From a virus: a DNA stretch of 22,144 nucleotides. Shown one piece after another: positions 4,202-9,426 of the stretch (position 1 is the stretch's first letter; each line of letters opens with the position of its first letter). The stretch spans positions 1-22,144 of IMG/VR virus record IMGVR_UViG_3300008221_000037. One strand, 5' to 3'. Under the pieces are notes generated by a model. It saw only the letters and a list, made by a program, of their open reading frames with translations, did not search any database and was not told where the DNA came from. The position numbers and the translations under genes were made by a program.

Positions 4202-4389
4202 GCCGCATCACGCTGATGAATCATTTTACGCATCCATGATTCAATCTCTGACTCTACCCAGACAGATGATCTGCCCACTTTCACAGGTTTGGGAAATTCA
4301 TCCCTTGCCATATGGGTATAGATAAAAGCTTTGCTTTTGCCGATTCTTGACTTCACCTCTGGCAGAGGTAAAAAACGTTCTTTAGTCAT
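4198..4389 (-). CDS. alpA: AlpA-family transcriptional regulator / excisionase-like protein
   Basis: A 63-residue MerR-like winged-HTH protein with the AlpA signature: LPEVKSRIGKSKAFIYTHM (helix-turn-helix, residues 8-26), then the conserved FPKPVKVGRSSVWVESEIESW. AlpA proteins activate or assist excision of P4-like elements and often serve as excisionase. It is the last gene of the leftward operon, overlaps the previous gene by ATGA, and runs head-on into int, overlapping it by four bases. Production from the repressed operon would therefore coincide with induction and excision, which fits an Xis role. That role is inferred. Confidence 0.85.
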   Translation of the reverse strand: MTKERFLPLPEVKSRIGKSKAFIYTHMARDEFPKPVKVGRSSVWVESEIESWMRKMIHQRDAA

Positions 4390-4886
4390 AACGACCCATC
4401 CTCATATTCAGATTTGTAGCCACATTTCGGGCATGTGGTAATCCCCATAAATCGGTGATCCGTTCCATCTTGGGTACGGACTGACCATGCACCAATTAAC
4501 TGGAATTTTTGCCCCGTTTCGTCTTGAGATAACTCAACCTGACAACCTTCTTCTGCAGCGCAGTGATAGCATTCACCGCCTGAAATCGCATAACCAGCAG
4601 TTGATTTGCCAATTTTATGAATCACCCTTGCTATCAGCGGATAAGATTGACGAAATCCATCAGTCCAATCACAAAAATATCGCCAAGCTTTACCTTCAAC
4701 CCAATGGAAAAATTCAAACACGGTCTTATATAAAATCCACCAGTGAATATTTGGCATTTGCCACCCCCAGAACTCATGCTTGCGAGGCATCACTCGTAAA
4801 CAGCATGAGCTGGATATCATTCGACTAAACGACCACCGTATTGGTCTGATTAGTAGCCATCCCCGTAATTGATATACAAATCTCAT
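4386..4886 (-). CDS. Tryptophan-rich zinc-ribbon protein, unknown function
   Basis: Not recognised. A 166-residue product whose N-terminal half is rich in Trp and aromatic residues (WGWQ, HWWILYK, FEFFHWVEG). The C-terminal half has paired cysteines, ECYHC (about 105-109) and TTCPKCGYKSE near the end, which look like a two-knuckle zinc ribbon. The ATG at 4886 overlaps the preceding stop as TGATG; a GTG three bases upstream is an alternative. Coupling on both sides (ATGA with alpA) supports a real gene. The zinc-binding reading is from motif spacing only. Confidence 0.65.
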   Translation of the reverse strand: MRFVYQLRGWLLIRPIRWSFSRMISSSCCLRVMPRKHEFWGWQMPNIHWWILYKTVFEFFHWVEGKAWRYFCDWTDGFRQSYPLIARVIHKIGKSTAGYAISGGECYHCAAEEGCQVELSQDETGQKFQLIGAWSVRTQDGTDHRFMGITTCPKCGYKSEYEDGSL

Positions 4887-5227
4887 CACGCTAACCTCAT
4901 CATTTTTGCTTTCACGGCAATCTCATCGGGTGTGAATCGATTTGACCAGTGGTGTAGTCGGTTTTTAGCTTCCAGATCTTTGTCATGCCGGGGTAGTGGT
5001 GTGGTCCAGTCGCCGTGCTTTCTGTCTTGGGTTTTATCTTGTCGCTCGGCTTCGGTTTGATGGCCACGTTTAAAGGCGTACTCCACACCATGGCGTGACA
5101 GCCAGTTTTGAAAGCGGCCTTTTGACACGTTGAAGTAGGCGGCCCATTCCGCGACAGTTTTGGTCATGCCGTTGTATCGGATCAGCATTTTTCTGCCGTG
5201 CTGTCGGTTGAGTATTTCGGGTTTCAT
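4886..5227 (-). CDS. Small HTH-like DNA-binding protein
   Basis: A 113-residue basic protein. Residues 20-45, TKTVAEWAAYFNVSKGRFQN, look like a helix-turn-helix of the kind in homeodomain-like phage proteins; the tail is charged and hydrophilic. The frame is open further upstream (to 5383), but that part overlaps a 54-codon membrane gene in another frame. I place the start at 5227, where ATGA overlaps that gene's stop and a GGAG lies 10 bases upstream. The target is unknown. It ends with TGATG into the next gene. Confidence 0.65.
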   Translation of the reverse strand: MKPEILNRQHGRKMLIRYNGMTKTVAEWAAYFNVSKGRFQNWLSRHGVEYAFKRGHQTEAERQDKTQDRKHGDWTTPLPRHDKDLEAKNRLHHWSNRFTPDEIAVKAKMMRLA

Positions 5228-5388
5228 GAGGGGCTTACTCCATCCTCTATGGTTAAACAAATCAGAGTGACGCCAACAAAGTACATCGAGAGAAATAACG
5301 CCTCTAAGGTGTAGCCACTCTTGGGAAAGGCAACGAATATCACGAAGCAGGCGAGGGCAATCATTAGCGCTATTGCTGACCATTTCAT
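5224..5388 (-). CDS. Tiny two-pass membrane protein (54 aa)
   Basis: A short gene hidden beside a longer shadow frame. The start ATG at 5388 has an excellent GAGGAAG six bases upstream, set in the stop region of the previous gene. The stop overlaps the next ATG as ATGA. The product starts MKWSAIALMIALACFVIFVA, one membrane segment, followed by a second (about residues 29-46) and a short acidic tail. No family recognised. Small phage membrane peptides of this kind can be holin-like, exclusion or inhibitor proteins, but nothing here decides between them. Confidence 0.65.
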   Translation of the reverse strand: MKWSAIALMIALACFVIFVAFPKSGYTLEALFLSMYFVGVTLICLTIEDGVSPS

Positions 5389-5397
5389 AATGCTTCC

Positions 5398-5670
5398 TCA
5401 GATAAACACTGTCGGGTAATTACGTTTACTGGGCAGCCCTTTGCGACAGCTTGGCGTGCAGTTGAGGTGCACATCTTCTGATTCCACCATGTAGGCTTTT
5501 GATGTGATGGTGACTTCAAACGGGTCAGCTGTTGGGTTGCCATCTGTCCAGTGGCCGCAATTGGCCATTGGGTTGTTTTCTCTAATCGATGGGTGAGGGC
5601 ATTGGCTGTTGCTGCAGCCTGCACATCTGCCGATCAGTGGGTAAAAGAGATCTGGCTGGGGGGCGTTCAT
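5398..5670 (-). CDS. Cysteine-rich small protein, unknown function
   Basis: A 90-residue product with a cluster near the N-terminus, GRCAGCSNSQCPHP (residues 14-27), and later single Cys residues (NCGHW, LNCTPSCRKG), suggesting metal binding. The frame stays open upstream inside the methyltransferase gene. The ATG at 5670 is preferred because it overlaps the methyltransferase stop as ATGA and has AGGAAG five bases upstream. A 79-codon frame over the same DNA in another frame is a shadow. No family recognised. Confidence 0.65.
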   Translation of the reverse strand: MNAPQPDLFYPLIGRCAGCSNSQCPHPSIRENNPMANCGHWTDGNPTADPFEVTITSKAYMVESEDVHLNCTPSCRKGLPSKRNYPTVFI

Positions 5671-6581
5671 GCAGCTTCCTGAATAGCATTGAGCAAATGC
5701 ATGACAGGAACCGGGCAAACAGCATTTCCCATCAAGTGAACTGCAAGTCGATGATTCTCAGGTAATAGATAGTTATTGGGGAACGACATCGCGTCGCGAC
5801 ATTCAAAGCGACTAAGCATTCGCATTTTATCGCCGTCGATAATGGCCCATCTATCACGGGTGGTGATGGTGCCAATTGGTCGGTTCAGGCTTCGGCCGTT
5901 CTTTGTATTGCCGTAATAACTAATAAGAAATCGATCACCATGCTGTTTTCGTCCAGCATCGATTCTTTTGAGTGTGGCGATAGCTCTACCTGGCTTAAAA
6001 ATCGGCTGCCATTTTCCAGCTTCAAAATCTATAAAGCTGCTGGAAGGGATTTCATCCTGTTTTTTCAGGTTTAGTTTTATAGCTTTTTGACTGCGAGACA
6101 GAACCAAAAACATGCGTTGCCGGTTTTGTGGTGCTCCGAAGTCTGCAGCATCGACAATATTAACGCTTACGCTGTAACCAAGAGCCTTTAAAGCTAGTGA
6201 CCATGCGTTGTAAAGTGACCAATCAAGAAACTCTTTAACGTTCTCAACAACAGCAACGGATGGCTTATGAAATTCAAGCGCTGAAATGACTGCCCATGCA
6301 GTGCTTCGGCTGGCATCATGCTCTGCGTTGCTTTTCTTTTTGCCGCGGGCTTTGCTATGACCCTGACAACAGGGTGATGCCAGCAATATGTCGTGTGATG
6401 GGACTTTTGACCAATCAGCCTGGTGCAGATCCTGACAAATGTGCTGGGTGTCGGGGTGATTATTGCTATGCCATTGCACCGCATCTGGCCAGTGGTTTGC
6501 TGCCCACACCACCTCGATTCCAGCCATCTTGGCACCCATCGAGAAACCGCCCGCACCAGCGAATAAATCAATTGCTTTCAT
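5667..6581 (-). CDS. DNA (cytosine-5-)-methyltransferase, phage type
   Basis: Transfers a methyl group from S-adenosylmethionine to C5 of cytosine in DNA. In a phage it most likely masks restriction sites. Motifs in order: I DLFAGAGGF (residues 5-13); IV ASPCCQGHS with nucleophile Cys72; VI VENV (112-115); VIII QNRQR (152-156); a target-recognition region about 165-245; and motif X GNAVCPVPV near the C-terminus. In motif IV the usual Pro-Pro-Cys-Gln is Pro-Cys-Cys-Gln, so a second Cys precedes the catalytic one. The length of 304 is compact but complete. No restriction endonuclease is adjacent, so it is an orphan enzyme. ATGA overlaps join it to both neighbours. Its recognition sequence cannot be read. 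Confidence 0.93.
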   Translation of the reverse strand: MKAIDLFAGAGGFSMGAKMAGIEVVWAANHWPDAVQWHSNNHPDTQHICQDLHQADWSKVPSHDILLASPCCQGHSKARGKKKSNAEHDASRSTAWAVISALEFHKPSVAVVENVKEFLDWSLYNAWSLALKALGYSVSVNIVDAADFGAPQNRQRMFLVLSRSQKAIKLNLKKQDEIPSSSFIDFEAGKWQPIFKPGRAIATLKRIDAGRKQHGDRFLISYYGNTKNGRSLNRPIGTITTRDRWAIIDGDKMRMLSRFECRDAMSFPNNYLLPENHRLAVHLMGNAVCPVPVMHLLNAIQEAA

Positions 6582-6781
6582 TTCGATTCATTCCCGGCTC
6601 TGGCCATGTGTTGATTCATTGATGGGCTGACGCGAAGAAATTCGGGCAGTGAGTGAGGTATGCCGTCGCTCATTTTCTTGTCGTCACAGTTGGCACAGAT
6701 CAGGCGCACACCGTAATCGATGTGGCCGTCTGTGAGTTGGCCAACGGGTTGCCAGCAGCGGGAGCAATTAAGTTCAGGCAT
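6578..6781 (-). CDS. Small zinc-finger-like protein
   Basis: A 67-residue product starting MPELNCSRCWQPVGQLTDG and then CANCDDKK: two CxxC pairs about 22 residues apart, a single treble-clef or zinc-ribbon fold. The tail is hydrophilic. The ATG at 6781 overlaps the previous stop as TGATG; a TTG at 6784 is in frame but less likely. It overlaps the methyltransferase start by ATGA, so its translation is coupled. Phage zinc-knuckle peptides often bind nucleic acid or host proteins; no specific role can be given. Confidence 0.65.
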   Translation of the reverse strand: MPELNCSRCWQPVGQLTDGHIDYGVRLICANCDDKKMSDGIPHSLPEFLRVSPSMNQHMARAGNESK

Positions 6782-7086
6782 CAAGGCGTTTCCATTCCAA
6801 GCTTTTTAAAAGTAATTTCCCTCATGTCTTTTAAGTGTTGCTGTGTTGCCTGCAGCTGACCAATATTCCCGGTTCCGTCAGATGGACGAATACCTGCATG
6901 CCACAGATCATCCATGAGCTGTTGGGCTTCATTTTTATTAATCGTGGCTATTGGGTGCAGGATTTGAGCTTCAGAAATTGGCTCCATGGTGAGCGGCTGG
7001 GCAGCATGCGTTTTGGTATAAACGGCAATTTCAATATTTGAACTGTAATTTGCACGCTGGGCACGTATTCTTAATTGTTCGCTCAT
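6781..7086 (-). CDS. Hypothetical phage protein
   Basis: Not recognised. A 101-residue soluble product with no membrane segment and no Cys. The C-terminal third is helical and charged (QLQATQQHLKDMREITFKKL). I choose the ATG at 7086 because GGAG lies six bases upstream; the frame also opens at 7098, but that ATG is itself part of the GGAG. It is the first gene after the large non-coding block, so its translation probably restarts here rather than being coupled. Confidence 0.6.
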   Translation of the reverse strand: MSEQLRIRAQRANYSSNIEIAVYTKTHAAQPLTMEPISEAQILHPIATINKNEAQQLMDDLWHAGIRPSDGTGNIGQLQATQQHLKDMREITFKKLGMETP

Positions 7087-7646
7087 ATCAGTCTCCATAA
7101 ATTATCTGCGGTGTTACGCCGGGTCGGCACTGGGAGCCTATTCCCCGGATTATTACGCTCTTGCCGTTTCGCACCGCATTGCGATCTATGCTGTCTACTC
7201 GCTTATCCGACTGGAGGTAGCACTCCCAATGACGGCTCTCACGCAACATAGATCGCAATACGATCTTTTTGGGTCCAGCCCGCTGCCGCTACTCAGCGTC
7301 TGGCTCACGTCGGTTGCTACTGCGTCCAGTAATAGCGGAACGCTCTGGGTTGTAATTCTGCGGTGGCCGGTTACCGATTCTATCCGGCGGGGGAGCGCAC
7401 CCCGGCTTGTCCATCGATAAAATGACAGCGCTCGTCTCACCGCATTAGGCTGCTGACTGTCTCGCCAGAGAGGATGGTAGGTACGTGACCCATCACTACA
7501 ATCAGCAGCCTGATGCACGGTGAGTTACGCCCACCACTCGACTGTTTTAGGTCAGGGAAGGAGTACCCCGCCGACAGTTGCACGCTGTTGCCCCCCCTGC
7601 GTGCTGGGGTCGCGATTTGCCAGCCTTACCATCGCGAGGGTGGTGC
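7087..7646. ncRNA. Candidate large structured non-coding RNA (about 0.55 kb)
   Basis: No convincing ORF lies here on either strand, yet inverted repeats are dense. Main helices: 7436-7441 and 7442-7456 with 7502-7516 and 7519-7524 (21 pairs, one 2-base bulge); 7178-7190 with 7247-7259 (13 perfect pairs); 7610-7616 with 7631-7637 (7); 7580-7585 with 7599-7604 (6); 7286-7291 with 7333-7338 (6); 7565-7569 with 7606-7610 (5); 7366-7370 with 7384-7388 (5); 7119-7123 with 7144-7148 (5). It interrupts an operon in which other genes overlap. The strand is unresolved: one U-G pair in the 21-pair helix fits the plus strand, while two pairs that would extend the 13-pair helix to 18 are G-U only on the minus strand. 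Context favours minus. No match to RNase P, tmRNA or intron signatures was seen. Boundaries are approximate. Confidence 0.65.
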
Positions 7647-7964
7647 TCATTTAACTTGTCCGTTCCATGCTTCGATGGTGTCGTGTATTGCACTTAAAAA
7701 ACTGGTTGGCTCATTGGTGAAGCAGTTTTGTGGAATGGTTTGAATGCTGCAGTTAAAGCAGGTGATGCAAATCAGGTGTTGCCCGGTTTCGTCGGGTGTT
7801 TTCTTTTCGCACCATGAGAGGTTTCCACCATCGCCACAGCGTTTGCAGGCGTGCAGCGGGTTGTTGTCAAGCAGCTTTTGTATGTTGAGGATGTCTCGAT
7901 TGATGTTTTCGAGGGCGATGCGTCGGTCGCGGGCTATGTCGAGTAGGGGTTGCAGGATGCTCAT
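7647..7964 (-). CDS. Lar-like restriction-alleviation family protein
   Basis: A 105-residue protein. The layout matches Lar/restriction-alleviation proteins: CKRCGDGGN (about 40-48), then a second pair CITCFNCS (about 67-74), and a C-terminal AIHDTIEAWNG resembling the family's conserved Ala-Ile-x-x-Trp-Asn ending. Rac-prophage Lar modulates type I restriction; most relatives have no tested role. The N-terminal 35 residues form a helical, possibly coiled segment not usual for short Lar proteins. It is coupled to the upstream gene by ATGA and is the last gene before the non-coding block. Assignment rests on motif spacing, so it is tentative. Confidence 0.55.
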   Translation of the reverse strand: MSILQPLLDIARDRRIALENINRDILNIQKLLDNNPLHACKRCGDGGNLSWCEKKTPDETGQHLICITCFNCSIQTIPQNCFTNEPTSFLSAIHDTIEAWNGQVK

Positions 7965-8242
7965 GCCGCACCGCCTTGCAGATACATCCGGCAGTACTGT
8001 TCGACGCCGGTGATGTGCCGTTTTGCCATTAACTTATCAACGGCGCGTTTTGGGCATGTGCTGATGATGGGGTCGCTGAGGCGTTCGTGCGTGACCACAT
8101 AACCGACAACGGTGCTGATTAGGCCGTGCTTACCTCTGCGGTTACTCATTCGCATGGCGATGCTGGATTCTTCGTTTGCAAATACGGTTTGCAGGCGTCT
8201 GAGCTGCTGAATTACGTGCTCTGGGTTGATGGCTTGCTTCAT
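7961..8242 (-). CDS. Hypothetical phage protein, C-terminus similar to next gene upstream
   Basis: A 93-residue product, not recognised. Its C-terminal region (AVDKLMAKRHITGVEQYCRM and then GGAA) resembles the end of the neighbouring 92-residue protein (AVKRLLRAAKITRVERYIRI and then GAAA). This suggests a shared module from duplication. The N-terminal half is different (QQLRRLQTVFANEESS). ATGA overlaps join it to both neighbours. Confidence 0.6.
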   Translation of the reverse strand: MKQAINPEHVIQQLRRLQTVFANEESSIAMRMSNRRGKHGLISTVVGYVVTHERLSDPIISTCPKRAVDKLMAKRHITGVEQYCRMYLQGGAA

Positions 8243-8517
8243 GCTGCAGCACCTTTAGCTTCTTCATAGGATTTAATGCGAATGTATCGTTCAACCCGGG
8301 TAATTTTTGCTGCACGAAGCAGTCGCTTAACGGCTAACTCTGGTGTAATTCCTAGCCACCAACCTCCAATTTGGCTTGATGTAGCAAAAAATGCTGGGAG
8401 CCTGAAACCGCTTTTACCTGCATGCTCGATTTCAAACCCAACAGTATTGTCGGCATCAGGTAAAACTTTTATCAGTAAAATTAATGCGTCTGATATTTGT
8501 GTCTGCATATCACTCAC
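8239..8517 (-). CDS. Hypothetical phage protein, paralogue-like C-terminus
   Basis: A 92-residue product, not recognised. The centre has GGWWLGITPELAVKRLLRAA, and the last 35 residues align with the downstream 93-residue protein. The pattern (Ala-Val-x-x-Leu, Ile-Thr-x-Val-Glu-x-Tyr) may be a small helical interaction module. The start ATG overlaps the previous stop by ATGA, and the end overlaps the next start likewise. Confidence 0.6.
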   Translation of the reverse strand: MSDMQTQISDALILLIKVLPDADNTVGFEIEHAGKSGFRLPAFFATSSQIGGWWLGITPELAVKRLLRAAKITRVERYIRIKSYEEAKGAAA

Positions 8518-9194
8518 TGGGTTATCTCCTTAAGGTCATGTTGAATTTGGTTAAGCACTTCGCTGATTTCCGGGTCGAGCAATCTGGCCAGCCCATCGAG
8601 CGTGCGTAGTTTGATGGTGAGGTTTTCAACTGATTTGCCGTTTAGCCTGGCTTTGAGCGTGTTAAGTGATTGCTCAATTGGTTGAAATTCATTGATTTCT
8701 TTAAGCATAAAAGCGGGTGGTTCAGCCTGAATCACTCTGTTGATTTCTTTTCGCTCATCATCGGTGACTGCTGAGCTGCCAGAAACGACTGTTAATGGTT
8801 CACGCTTGGGCGCTTCAACAATAGGCCGCAATATGCCTTTTGGCCGATTTTCGGGGTTTACTATTTTTTGTTCGGGACTTTTCTCAGCATCAAGCTGCTC
8901 TGGGCTGATTTGCTTATAAGGCATGTAGCCGTTCAGATCGTATTGCTTAATGTCCTTGCCCGTGCCGGTACCAACAGAGTGCTGGCCTAGTGTTTTCAAA
9001 TAGTTCTTATCCAGCAGCCATTGAATGGCGACGTTAAATTCCAACTGGGTGAAGTCGTCGAGCCACATTTTGATGGTGTCACGCAGGACTTTGCGGCCAA
9101 AGTGTTTGCCGGATGGGTTTGCTGATTCGGCTGAGACTGTGGCGATGTGATACATAACCGCATCACAGATGAGCTTATTCGGTGGATTTTTCAT
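8514..9194 (-). CDS. Hypothetical phage protein with winged-helix-like N-terminus
   Basis: A 226-residue product. The N-terminal third (CDAVMYHIATVSAE, then TQLEFNVAIQWLLDKNYLKT) has the helix pattern of a winged-helix domain. A proline- and lysine-rich linker follows (about 95-135). The C-terminal part is leucine-periodic and helical (SLNTLKARLNGKSVENLTIK). The frame is open upstream to 9365, but two tiny membrane genes occupy that DNA in other frames. The ATG at 9194 overlaps the second one's stop by ATGA and is the better start. A replication- or regulation-related role is possible but not shown. Confidence 0.6.
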   Translation of the reverse strand: MKNPPNKLICDAVMYHIATVSAESANPSGKHFGRKVLRDTIKMWLDDFTQLEFNVAIQWLLDKNYLKTLGQHSVGTGTGKDIKQYDLNGYMPYKQISPEQLDAEKSPEQKIVNPENRPKGILRPIVEAPKREPLTVVSGSSAVTDDERKEINRVIQAEPPAFMLKEINEFQPIEQSLNTLKARLNGKSVENLTIKLRTLDGLARLLDPEISEVLNQIQHDLKEITQ

Positions 9195-9307
9195 GCTGGC
9201 ACCATATTGGTGAATACCTGTGCAGCGATGAGTACGGCCAGCACAAAGGTGGTGTTCAGGATGGGGTCGGCGTTGCGAGCCCAGAAGCGTTTGAGATTGG
9301 CTTTCAT
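9191..9307 (-). CDS. Tiny single-pass membrane protein (38 aa)
   Basis: Second gene of the leftward operon. Its ATG (9307) overlaps the first gene's stop as TGATG, and its stop overlaps the next start as ATGA. The product has a basic head (MKANLKRFWARN) and one hydrophobic segment, residues 18-34 (NTTFVLAVLIAAQVF). A basic N-terminus predicts an N-in orientation. No family recognised. Double coupling is the main evidence that it is translated. Confidence 0.6.
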   Translation of the reverse strand: MKANLKRFWARNADPILNTTFVLAVLIAAQVFTNMVPA

Positions 9308-9426
9308 CAGAAAAGCAGCGCGATAAAGAATGCGACCACAAACAGCACACCGATGGTGGTGTCAATTTTTTGTAACTGGGTGTATGGGTCGCGTTCTGGG
9401 CTTTTACATTCGATGGTGTATTTCAT
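9307..9426 (-). CDS. Tiny single-pass membrane protein (39 aa), first gene of leftward operon
   Basis: First gene of the repressed leftward operon. A near-perfect ribosome-binding site, GGGGAAGG, lies four bases before the ATG at 9426. The product has a hydrophilic, charged N-terminal half and one membrane segment at the C-terminus (IGVLFVVAFFIALLF). The shape is that of a tail-anchored peptide. Being first behind a CI-controlled promoter, it should be made immediately on induction or infection. Function unknown. Confidence 0.65.
   Translation of the reverse strand: MKYTIECKSPERDPYTQLQKIDTTIGVLFVVAFFIALLF

Follow-up and report, generated by a model that had tools for sequence, protein, structure and literature searches.

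A non-coding block at positions 7099–7646 in the leftward operon of a viral contig is well supported as a structured RNA. The window analyzed here is the whole 22,144-base contig, IMG/VR record IMGVR_UViG_3300008221_000037. Our preferred reading, which we hold with about even confidence, is that the block is a modular RNA of the minus strand, that its central slot is occupied either by a domain defined in this analysis (here called D) or by a divergent version of it, and that the RNA most likely acts in trans.

The contig carries genes for an integrase, a CI-like repressor, the terminase large subunit, and a portal protein, and the leftward operon includes a C5-cytosine methyltransferase gene. 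Leftward open reading frames (ORFs) are located at 4386–4889, 4886–5383, 5385–5624, 5667–6581, 6578–6784, and 6781–7098 on one side of the block and at 7647–7964, 7961–8242, 8239–8517, and 8514–9365 on the other. Their junctions overlap or abut, with one 42-nt gap, and the exception is the interval between genes 7647–7964 and 6781–7098 (ORF list, sequence, and folds). The original prediction of a tightly packed operon interrupted by a single block is therefore confirmed by the ORF coordinates. The gap itself is real, but the start previously assigned to it, position 7087, falls within gene 6781–7098. The genes directly flanking the block have no family matches. The direction of the operon and the orientation of the homologous domain in two related phages indicate that the RNA is probably made from the minus strand.

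Long helices are the most conspicuous feature of the block. The 13-pair helix proposed earlier (7178–7190 with 7247–7259) is exact, and the second proposed helix, described as 21 pairs with one bulge, is indeed a long hairpin, although its extent is 7436–7460 with 7498–7524 and its pairing is interrupted by one mismatch and a bulge of 2 nt. The two longest uninterrupted stems measure 13 and 10 bp and occur within 110 nt. None of 300 dinucleotide shuffles reached a 13-bp stem, so the claim that chance does not produce such helices holds. When both strands were folded, the block was more stable than shuffled sequences (minus strand, z = −2.36; plus strand, z = −1.74), as is expected of long hairpins. 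Because both strands fold somewhat better than shuffles, folding energy is silent on which strand is used.

Read 5′ to 3′ on the minus strand, the block begins with domain C (7532–7645; alignment and fold), which is nearly unchanged in the related phages L001 and L002. Its outer stem CACCAC/GTGGTG (7640–7645 with 7532–7537) is accompanied by the hairpins TCGCGAT/ATCGCGA and GCACGC/GCGTGC. Hairpin A (7436–7524; alignment and fold) corresponds to the former 21-pair helix. Module A (7360–7443; alignment and pattern) occupies the site that holds a D domain in L001 and L002, and has an outer stem GCGGTG/CACCGC (7438–7443 with 7360–7365), a 3′ hairpin GCCGG/CCGGC (7384–7388 with 7366–7370), and a possible hairpin TGTC(ATTTTATCGATG)GACA (7408–7427). 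A linker (7263–7359) that is ∼95% identical in the relatives folds as one small branched domain. It is followed by hairpin B (7175–7262), whose 13 perfect pairs at 7178–7190 with 7247–7259 are part of 19-nt arms that match at 89%, and by module B (7108–7177), where an outer stem GCGGTG/CACCGC encloses hairpins. Module B is a second copy of the module A plan GCGGTG...CACCGCAGA. The sequence CACCGCAGA occurs three times in the window, compared to 0.2 occurrences expected, and two of these close modules A and B. A 33-nt stretch around one arm of hairpin B (7236–7268) has an 88% match to an unannotated fecal phage record, MT837373 (E = 0.05). On paper, hairpin A and the outer stem at the D position share a strand; among 104 D copies, competition of this kind was not clearly above chance.

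Only two close relatives, L001 and L002, were found, and a search with neighboring genes gave the same two contigs. No similar block was found in the upstream DNA of five other contigs that carry a relative of gene 6781–7098. The DNA of L001 and L002 is ∼95%–98% identical around the block, and is replaced between window positions 7371 and 7511. Hairpin A keeps its outer pairs and topology in both relatives, but its inner helix of ∼12 bp differs in both arms and is nevertheless fully paired (CAGGCTGCTGATTG/CAGTCAGCAGCCT in the window and ATTGATGGCTTG/CAAGCTATCAAT in L001). In the alignment, 17 pairs fall in the same columns, 4 of these with both sides changed, and 23 fall within one column. The original prediction called for a covariation test of its helices, and hairpin A shows a compensatory change between sister phages. 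Hairpin B is unchanged in L002 and missing from L001. L002 has both hairpin B and module B; L001 has neither and also lacks the downstream gene 6781–7098, in whose place it carries a PHROG 18518 gene. At the module A site, both relatives have a D domain that scores 88 bits with D covariance model R1. Elsewhere in the operon, gene 4386–4889 is absent from both relatives. Their matches flanking it overlap by ∼18 bases, which suggests that a short direct repeat was the site at which the gene was inserted or lost.

The D domain was traced from a 33-nt piece of the L001 block, which has a match in an annotation gap of Klebsiella phage RCIP0108. This gap has the same plan as L001: a perfect 19-bp hairpin comes first, followed by a 19-nt imperfect helix that encloses 112 nt and ends with AGACCAGCACCGGCCACC, and then by a terminator-like hairpin and a T run. 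The RCIP0108 element has whole or partial matches in 123 phage records, and the motif CCGGAGACCAGCACCGG is found in 36 IMG/VR contigs, most of which have one common structure. D opens with an outer stem of free sequence, GAAT, and a GCGC(AGGCTGAT)GCGC hairpin. Next comes a middle that is hypervariable, and then a second hairpin, GCCGG(AGAYCAGCA)CCGGC, after which the outer stem closes. The middle ranges from about 12 to 165 nt, and the outer stem is 6 bp or longer in 101 of the 110 copies. In two contigs (L184, 4600–4646; L243, ∼5882–5928), ∼47 nt of the middle match small-subunit rRNA models (in L184, E is between about 1e-7 and 1e-5), which gives the impression of an insert captured from a 16S-type rRNA.

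Covariation supports this structure. In 27 sequences whose alignment was not fitted to the structure, 91% of the proposed positions are paired and 11 pairs are changed on both sides; this was reached in 0 of 500 shuffles, and slid controls gave 28%–47%. Among 83 aligned copies, which were found by the model and therefore lean towards its structure, 95.7% of the pairs are intact, and for 16 of the 18 pairs both sides have changed. The two hairpin loops also appear to be matched. Copies retrieved via the first hairpin usually carry ATCAGC in the second loop, which is perfectly complementary to GCTGAT. The sequences of the first alignment were retrieved with an ACCAGC pattern; among them, four loop-contact pairs are present in nearly all copies and do not covary. 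A kissing contact between the loops is likely rather than proven, since the loops are complementary yet the contact pairs show no covariation. D has no match in Rfam, and searches of the literature for the motif and for phage noncoding RNAs brought up no description of it. The family that occupies the D position in the sister phages is well supported.

How does the window itself compare? Model R1 finds no credible match in the block. An outer stem closing directly on a 3′ GCCGG...CCGGC hairpin, as in D, is present at 7360–7443, and the module A strand ACCGGCCACCGCAGA is identical to that of L001. The motifs GAAT and GGCTGAT, the latter for loop pairing with ATCAGC or ACCAGC, are absent from the block. 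What the window copy retains of the D position is the outer stem with its closing strand and the stem of the 3′ hairpin; both loops and the middle differ. The loop of TGTC(ATTTTATCGATG)GACA could form 8 bp with the loop ATAGAATCGGTAA (loop test p = 0.035), a result that is only suggestive of loop–loop pairing in this copy. Searching phage and E. coli DNA for the window copy gave no convincing match. IMG/VR searches with patterns from module B and the window loops recovered only L002 and chance matches, among them a terminator-like hairpin (L295) and an unrelated sequence (L306). Because the loops and middle are different and the D model fails, we do not file the window copy as a member of the family; it is a divergent, D-like occupant of the D position.

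D is widespread: phages and prophages of Proteobacteria yielded 154 distinct copies, and the domain is found in enterics, Pseudomonas, Burkholderiales, and Xanthomonas. Carriers include HK629, CUS-3, D6, PAJU2, PY54, jedunaviruses, and the N4-like phage ZC08. In GTDB genomes, at least 119 stretches contain a 20-nt D core, and not all of them are D elements. With at most one mismatch, the core is present in 8 of 296 Enterobacterales, 7 of 300 Burkholderiales, and 14 of 199 Pseudomonadaceae genomes (roughly 2%–7%), and the reversed core in none. These pattern counts were used in place of a whole-genome covariance-model survey, which was set aside because it scores few candidates per genome and so undercounts D.

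The surroundings of D vary. It has Q with the late promoter on one side and the holin gene on the other in HK629 (about 43.42–43.54 kb) and CUS-3, before the holin gene in PY54, after cI in PAJU2, and within or beside tRNA arrays in ZC08, ST4, and D6. In jedunaviruses it is antisense between tail genes and has its own terminator-like hairpin, an arrangement that argues for action in trans. A tRNA is found within 500 nt of 21 of the 154 copies, compared to 1.9% for random positions of the same contigs, and in 19 of these 21 cases it is on the same strand; some copies are only 0–2 nt from a tRNA (L048, L055, and L298). Terminators are near the sense 3′ side of 23 of 151 copies, versus 2 of 147 on the antisense side. 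In the deposited record of phage D6 (MF356679, here L298), tRNAs at 5736–8764 are listed on the minus strand. ARAGORN and Rfam place them on the plus strand, and the deposited strand looks wrong.

A second conserved domain, E (GCGGTCCGGGG...CAGCGGGTAGCCGGA), is present in at least 120 viral contigs, has covarying pairs of its own, and is absent from Rfam. Its model gives a weak match of 5.2 bits on module B. In the four contigs whose neighbors were tested (L182, L241, L174, and L226), E follows a CI-like repressor gene, a site from which expression in lysogens is expected. The same four contigs have a PHROG 14171 gene downstream of E, and two also have a ParB-like gene. E adjoins tRNA-Arg in L052, L173, and L185. 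Of 83 E loci, 15 also contain D, which mostly lies immediately downstream. In a 94-kb phage (L043, 4700–7050), tRNAs in a 2.3-kb array are interspersed with several long hairpins, and two D domains and one E domain are also part of it. These hairpins have the common ends CACAAC...AGAGC and GCTCT...CCGTTGTGG (...GTTGTGG). This type of hairpin is a recurring element, with 22 distinct copies, 15 of which are followed directly by a D-like start.

The known RNAs that most resemble D are PasD and STnc100, which are related prophage sRNAs with a reported common ancestry (PMC13192938). For PasD, RIL-seq is reported to show Hfq binding and base-pairing with mRNAs (PMC13192938). D and STnc100 (RF02076) have the same order of parts: an outer stem ending in GGTG leads into GAAT and a GC-rich hairpin, the middle varies, and a GC-rich 3′ hairpin runs straight into the CACC of the outer stem. 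D also shares a prophage location with STnc100/PasD. However, their loop sequences and middles differ, and D is also found in Pseudomonas, Burkholderiales, and Xanthomonas, whereas most descriptions of STnc100/PasD come from prophages of E. coli and Salmonella. The RF02076 model misses D in HK629, CUS-3, L001, and the jedunavirus RCIP0108, and finds no match in the window, including the block, even at E ≤ 10. Two weak scores connect the families. A copy in phage D6 (1724–1855) that adjoins a canonical D and tRNA-Ser is both a weak D match and a sub-threshold STnc100 match (39.6 bits, with a gathering cut-off of 47). Conversely, model R1 aligns a true STnc100 copy (L308) over its length (E = 0.013 in 9 kb). 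The link between D and STnc100 rests on architecture and these weak scores.

The architecture common to D and STnc100/PasD, together with the association of PasD with Hfq, makes a stable trans-acting RNA the most likely explanation. The minus strand of the block, within the leftward operon, would then give rise to a structured RNA of modular design, whose module A slot would hold a member of D or have been overwritten by a divergent version. In D, the loop of the 5′ hairpin may pair with that of the 3′ GCCGG/CCGGC hairpin, while the sequence of the outer stem is free to vary. The conserved ends and variable middle suggest a rigid scaffold that displays an exchangeable, hypervariable insert. 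Such an RNA could be stable and function in trans on RNAs of the host or the phage, either pairing with them or sequestering them. The window RNA might be cut out of the operon transcript or might act from within it.

The original prediction raised GOLLD and ROOL RNAs (PMC12286853) as a comparison. On this explanation, D and the window block would belong to a large ornate structural RNA of that type, a tRNA-island multimer without base-pairing targets. The niche is the same (phages, prophages, and tRNA arrays), both are modular and several hundred nucleotides long, kissing loops are possible, a size of 500 nt is reached in L013, and the L043 array mixes tRNAs, hairpins, D, and E over 2.3 kb. 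However, D is a small repeated domain rather than one large fold, in many phages it is found alone at 90–150 nt, and its architecture is nearer to that of the 200-nt sRNA STnc100. The window block matches no Rfam family at E ≤ 1, and Rfam scans of the relatives for known RNAs gave no GOLLD or ROOL match in sequence or structure. A phage site near tRNAs characterizes part of the D family and not the window, in which no tRNA genes were found. We therefore consider this explanation unlikely. The structural part of the earlier proposal stands, through the compensatory change in hairpin A and the covarying D domain at the same site in L001 and L002, and the block is not GOLLD or ROOL. The modular make-up of the block, the exchange of the module at the D position between relatives, and the architectural match to STnc100 go beyond that proposal.

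An equally doubtful alternative is that the block acts in cis, as a leader or operon element through which processing, termination, or translation of gene 6781–7098 is controlled. The block is inside the operon directly ahead of the start codon, hairpin B and module B co-occur with the downstream gene (L002 has both and L001 neither), and the D copies of HK629 and CUS-3, flanked by Q with the late promoter and by the holin gene, would suit such a role. Yet the D family has no fixed downstream gene, as illustrated by copies in tRNA arrays, after cI, and antisense to tail genes with a terminator-like hairpin. The put antitermination RNAs of phage HK022 are a phage-encoded stem-loop pair within an operon. 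D differs in that it has no fixed link to operon starts and may have a terminator-like hairpin immediately after it.

It is very improbable that the block is a protein gene, with a genuine 147-codon frame in L001 and L002, a frameshift in the window, and incidental hairpins. This frame is open across the block in both relatives (147 codons in L001), has an ATGA start overlap with the upstream gene, and stays open in only 0.34% of base shuffles. In the window, one additional G within a run (∼7587–7593) breaks it: seven G residues replace the GGTGGG of the relatives, and this may be a sequencing error or real. The frame has no Pfam or PHROG family and no tblastn homolog better than E = 0.8, and differences between L001 and L002 show no third-position bias. 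The spacing from motif to motif across D copies is not in multiples of 3, and D recurs amid unrelated surroundings with covarying stems. As originally predicted, the window has no convincing ORF in the block, only ORFs of 107 and 56 amino acids that lack family matches, and no homologous protein was found in one frame of the block. Conserved coding is thus unlikely, although ribosomes starting at the overlapping ATGA might translate into the RNA.

For the preferred trans-acting RNA, a broader relationship can be proposed tentatively, with somewhat less than even confidence: D, the window version, STnc100/PasD, and perhaps E may constitute one unrecognized superfamily of phage RNAs, built as kissing-hairpin scaffolds with exchangeable stems, loops, and inserts. 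If so, the loop pairs would be alternative solutions of one contact, with GCTGAT/ATCAGC in D, possibly GTGC/GCAC in STnc100, and ATTTTATC/GATAGAAT in the window. The members would be cassettes shuffled into tRNA arrays, into operons, and behind repressor genes, and would represent a general RNA platform of Proteobacterial phages. D is a structured RNA that resides in many well-studied phages yet lacks an Rfam entry, and its fold ties it to the STnc100/PasD sRNAs. Because D lies flush in tRNA arrays, the function of phage tRNA islands becomes directly testable in laboratory phages.
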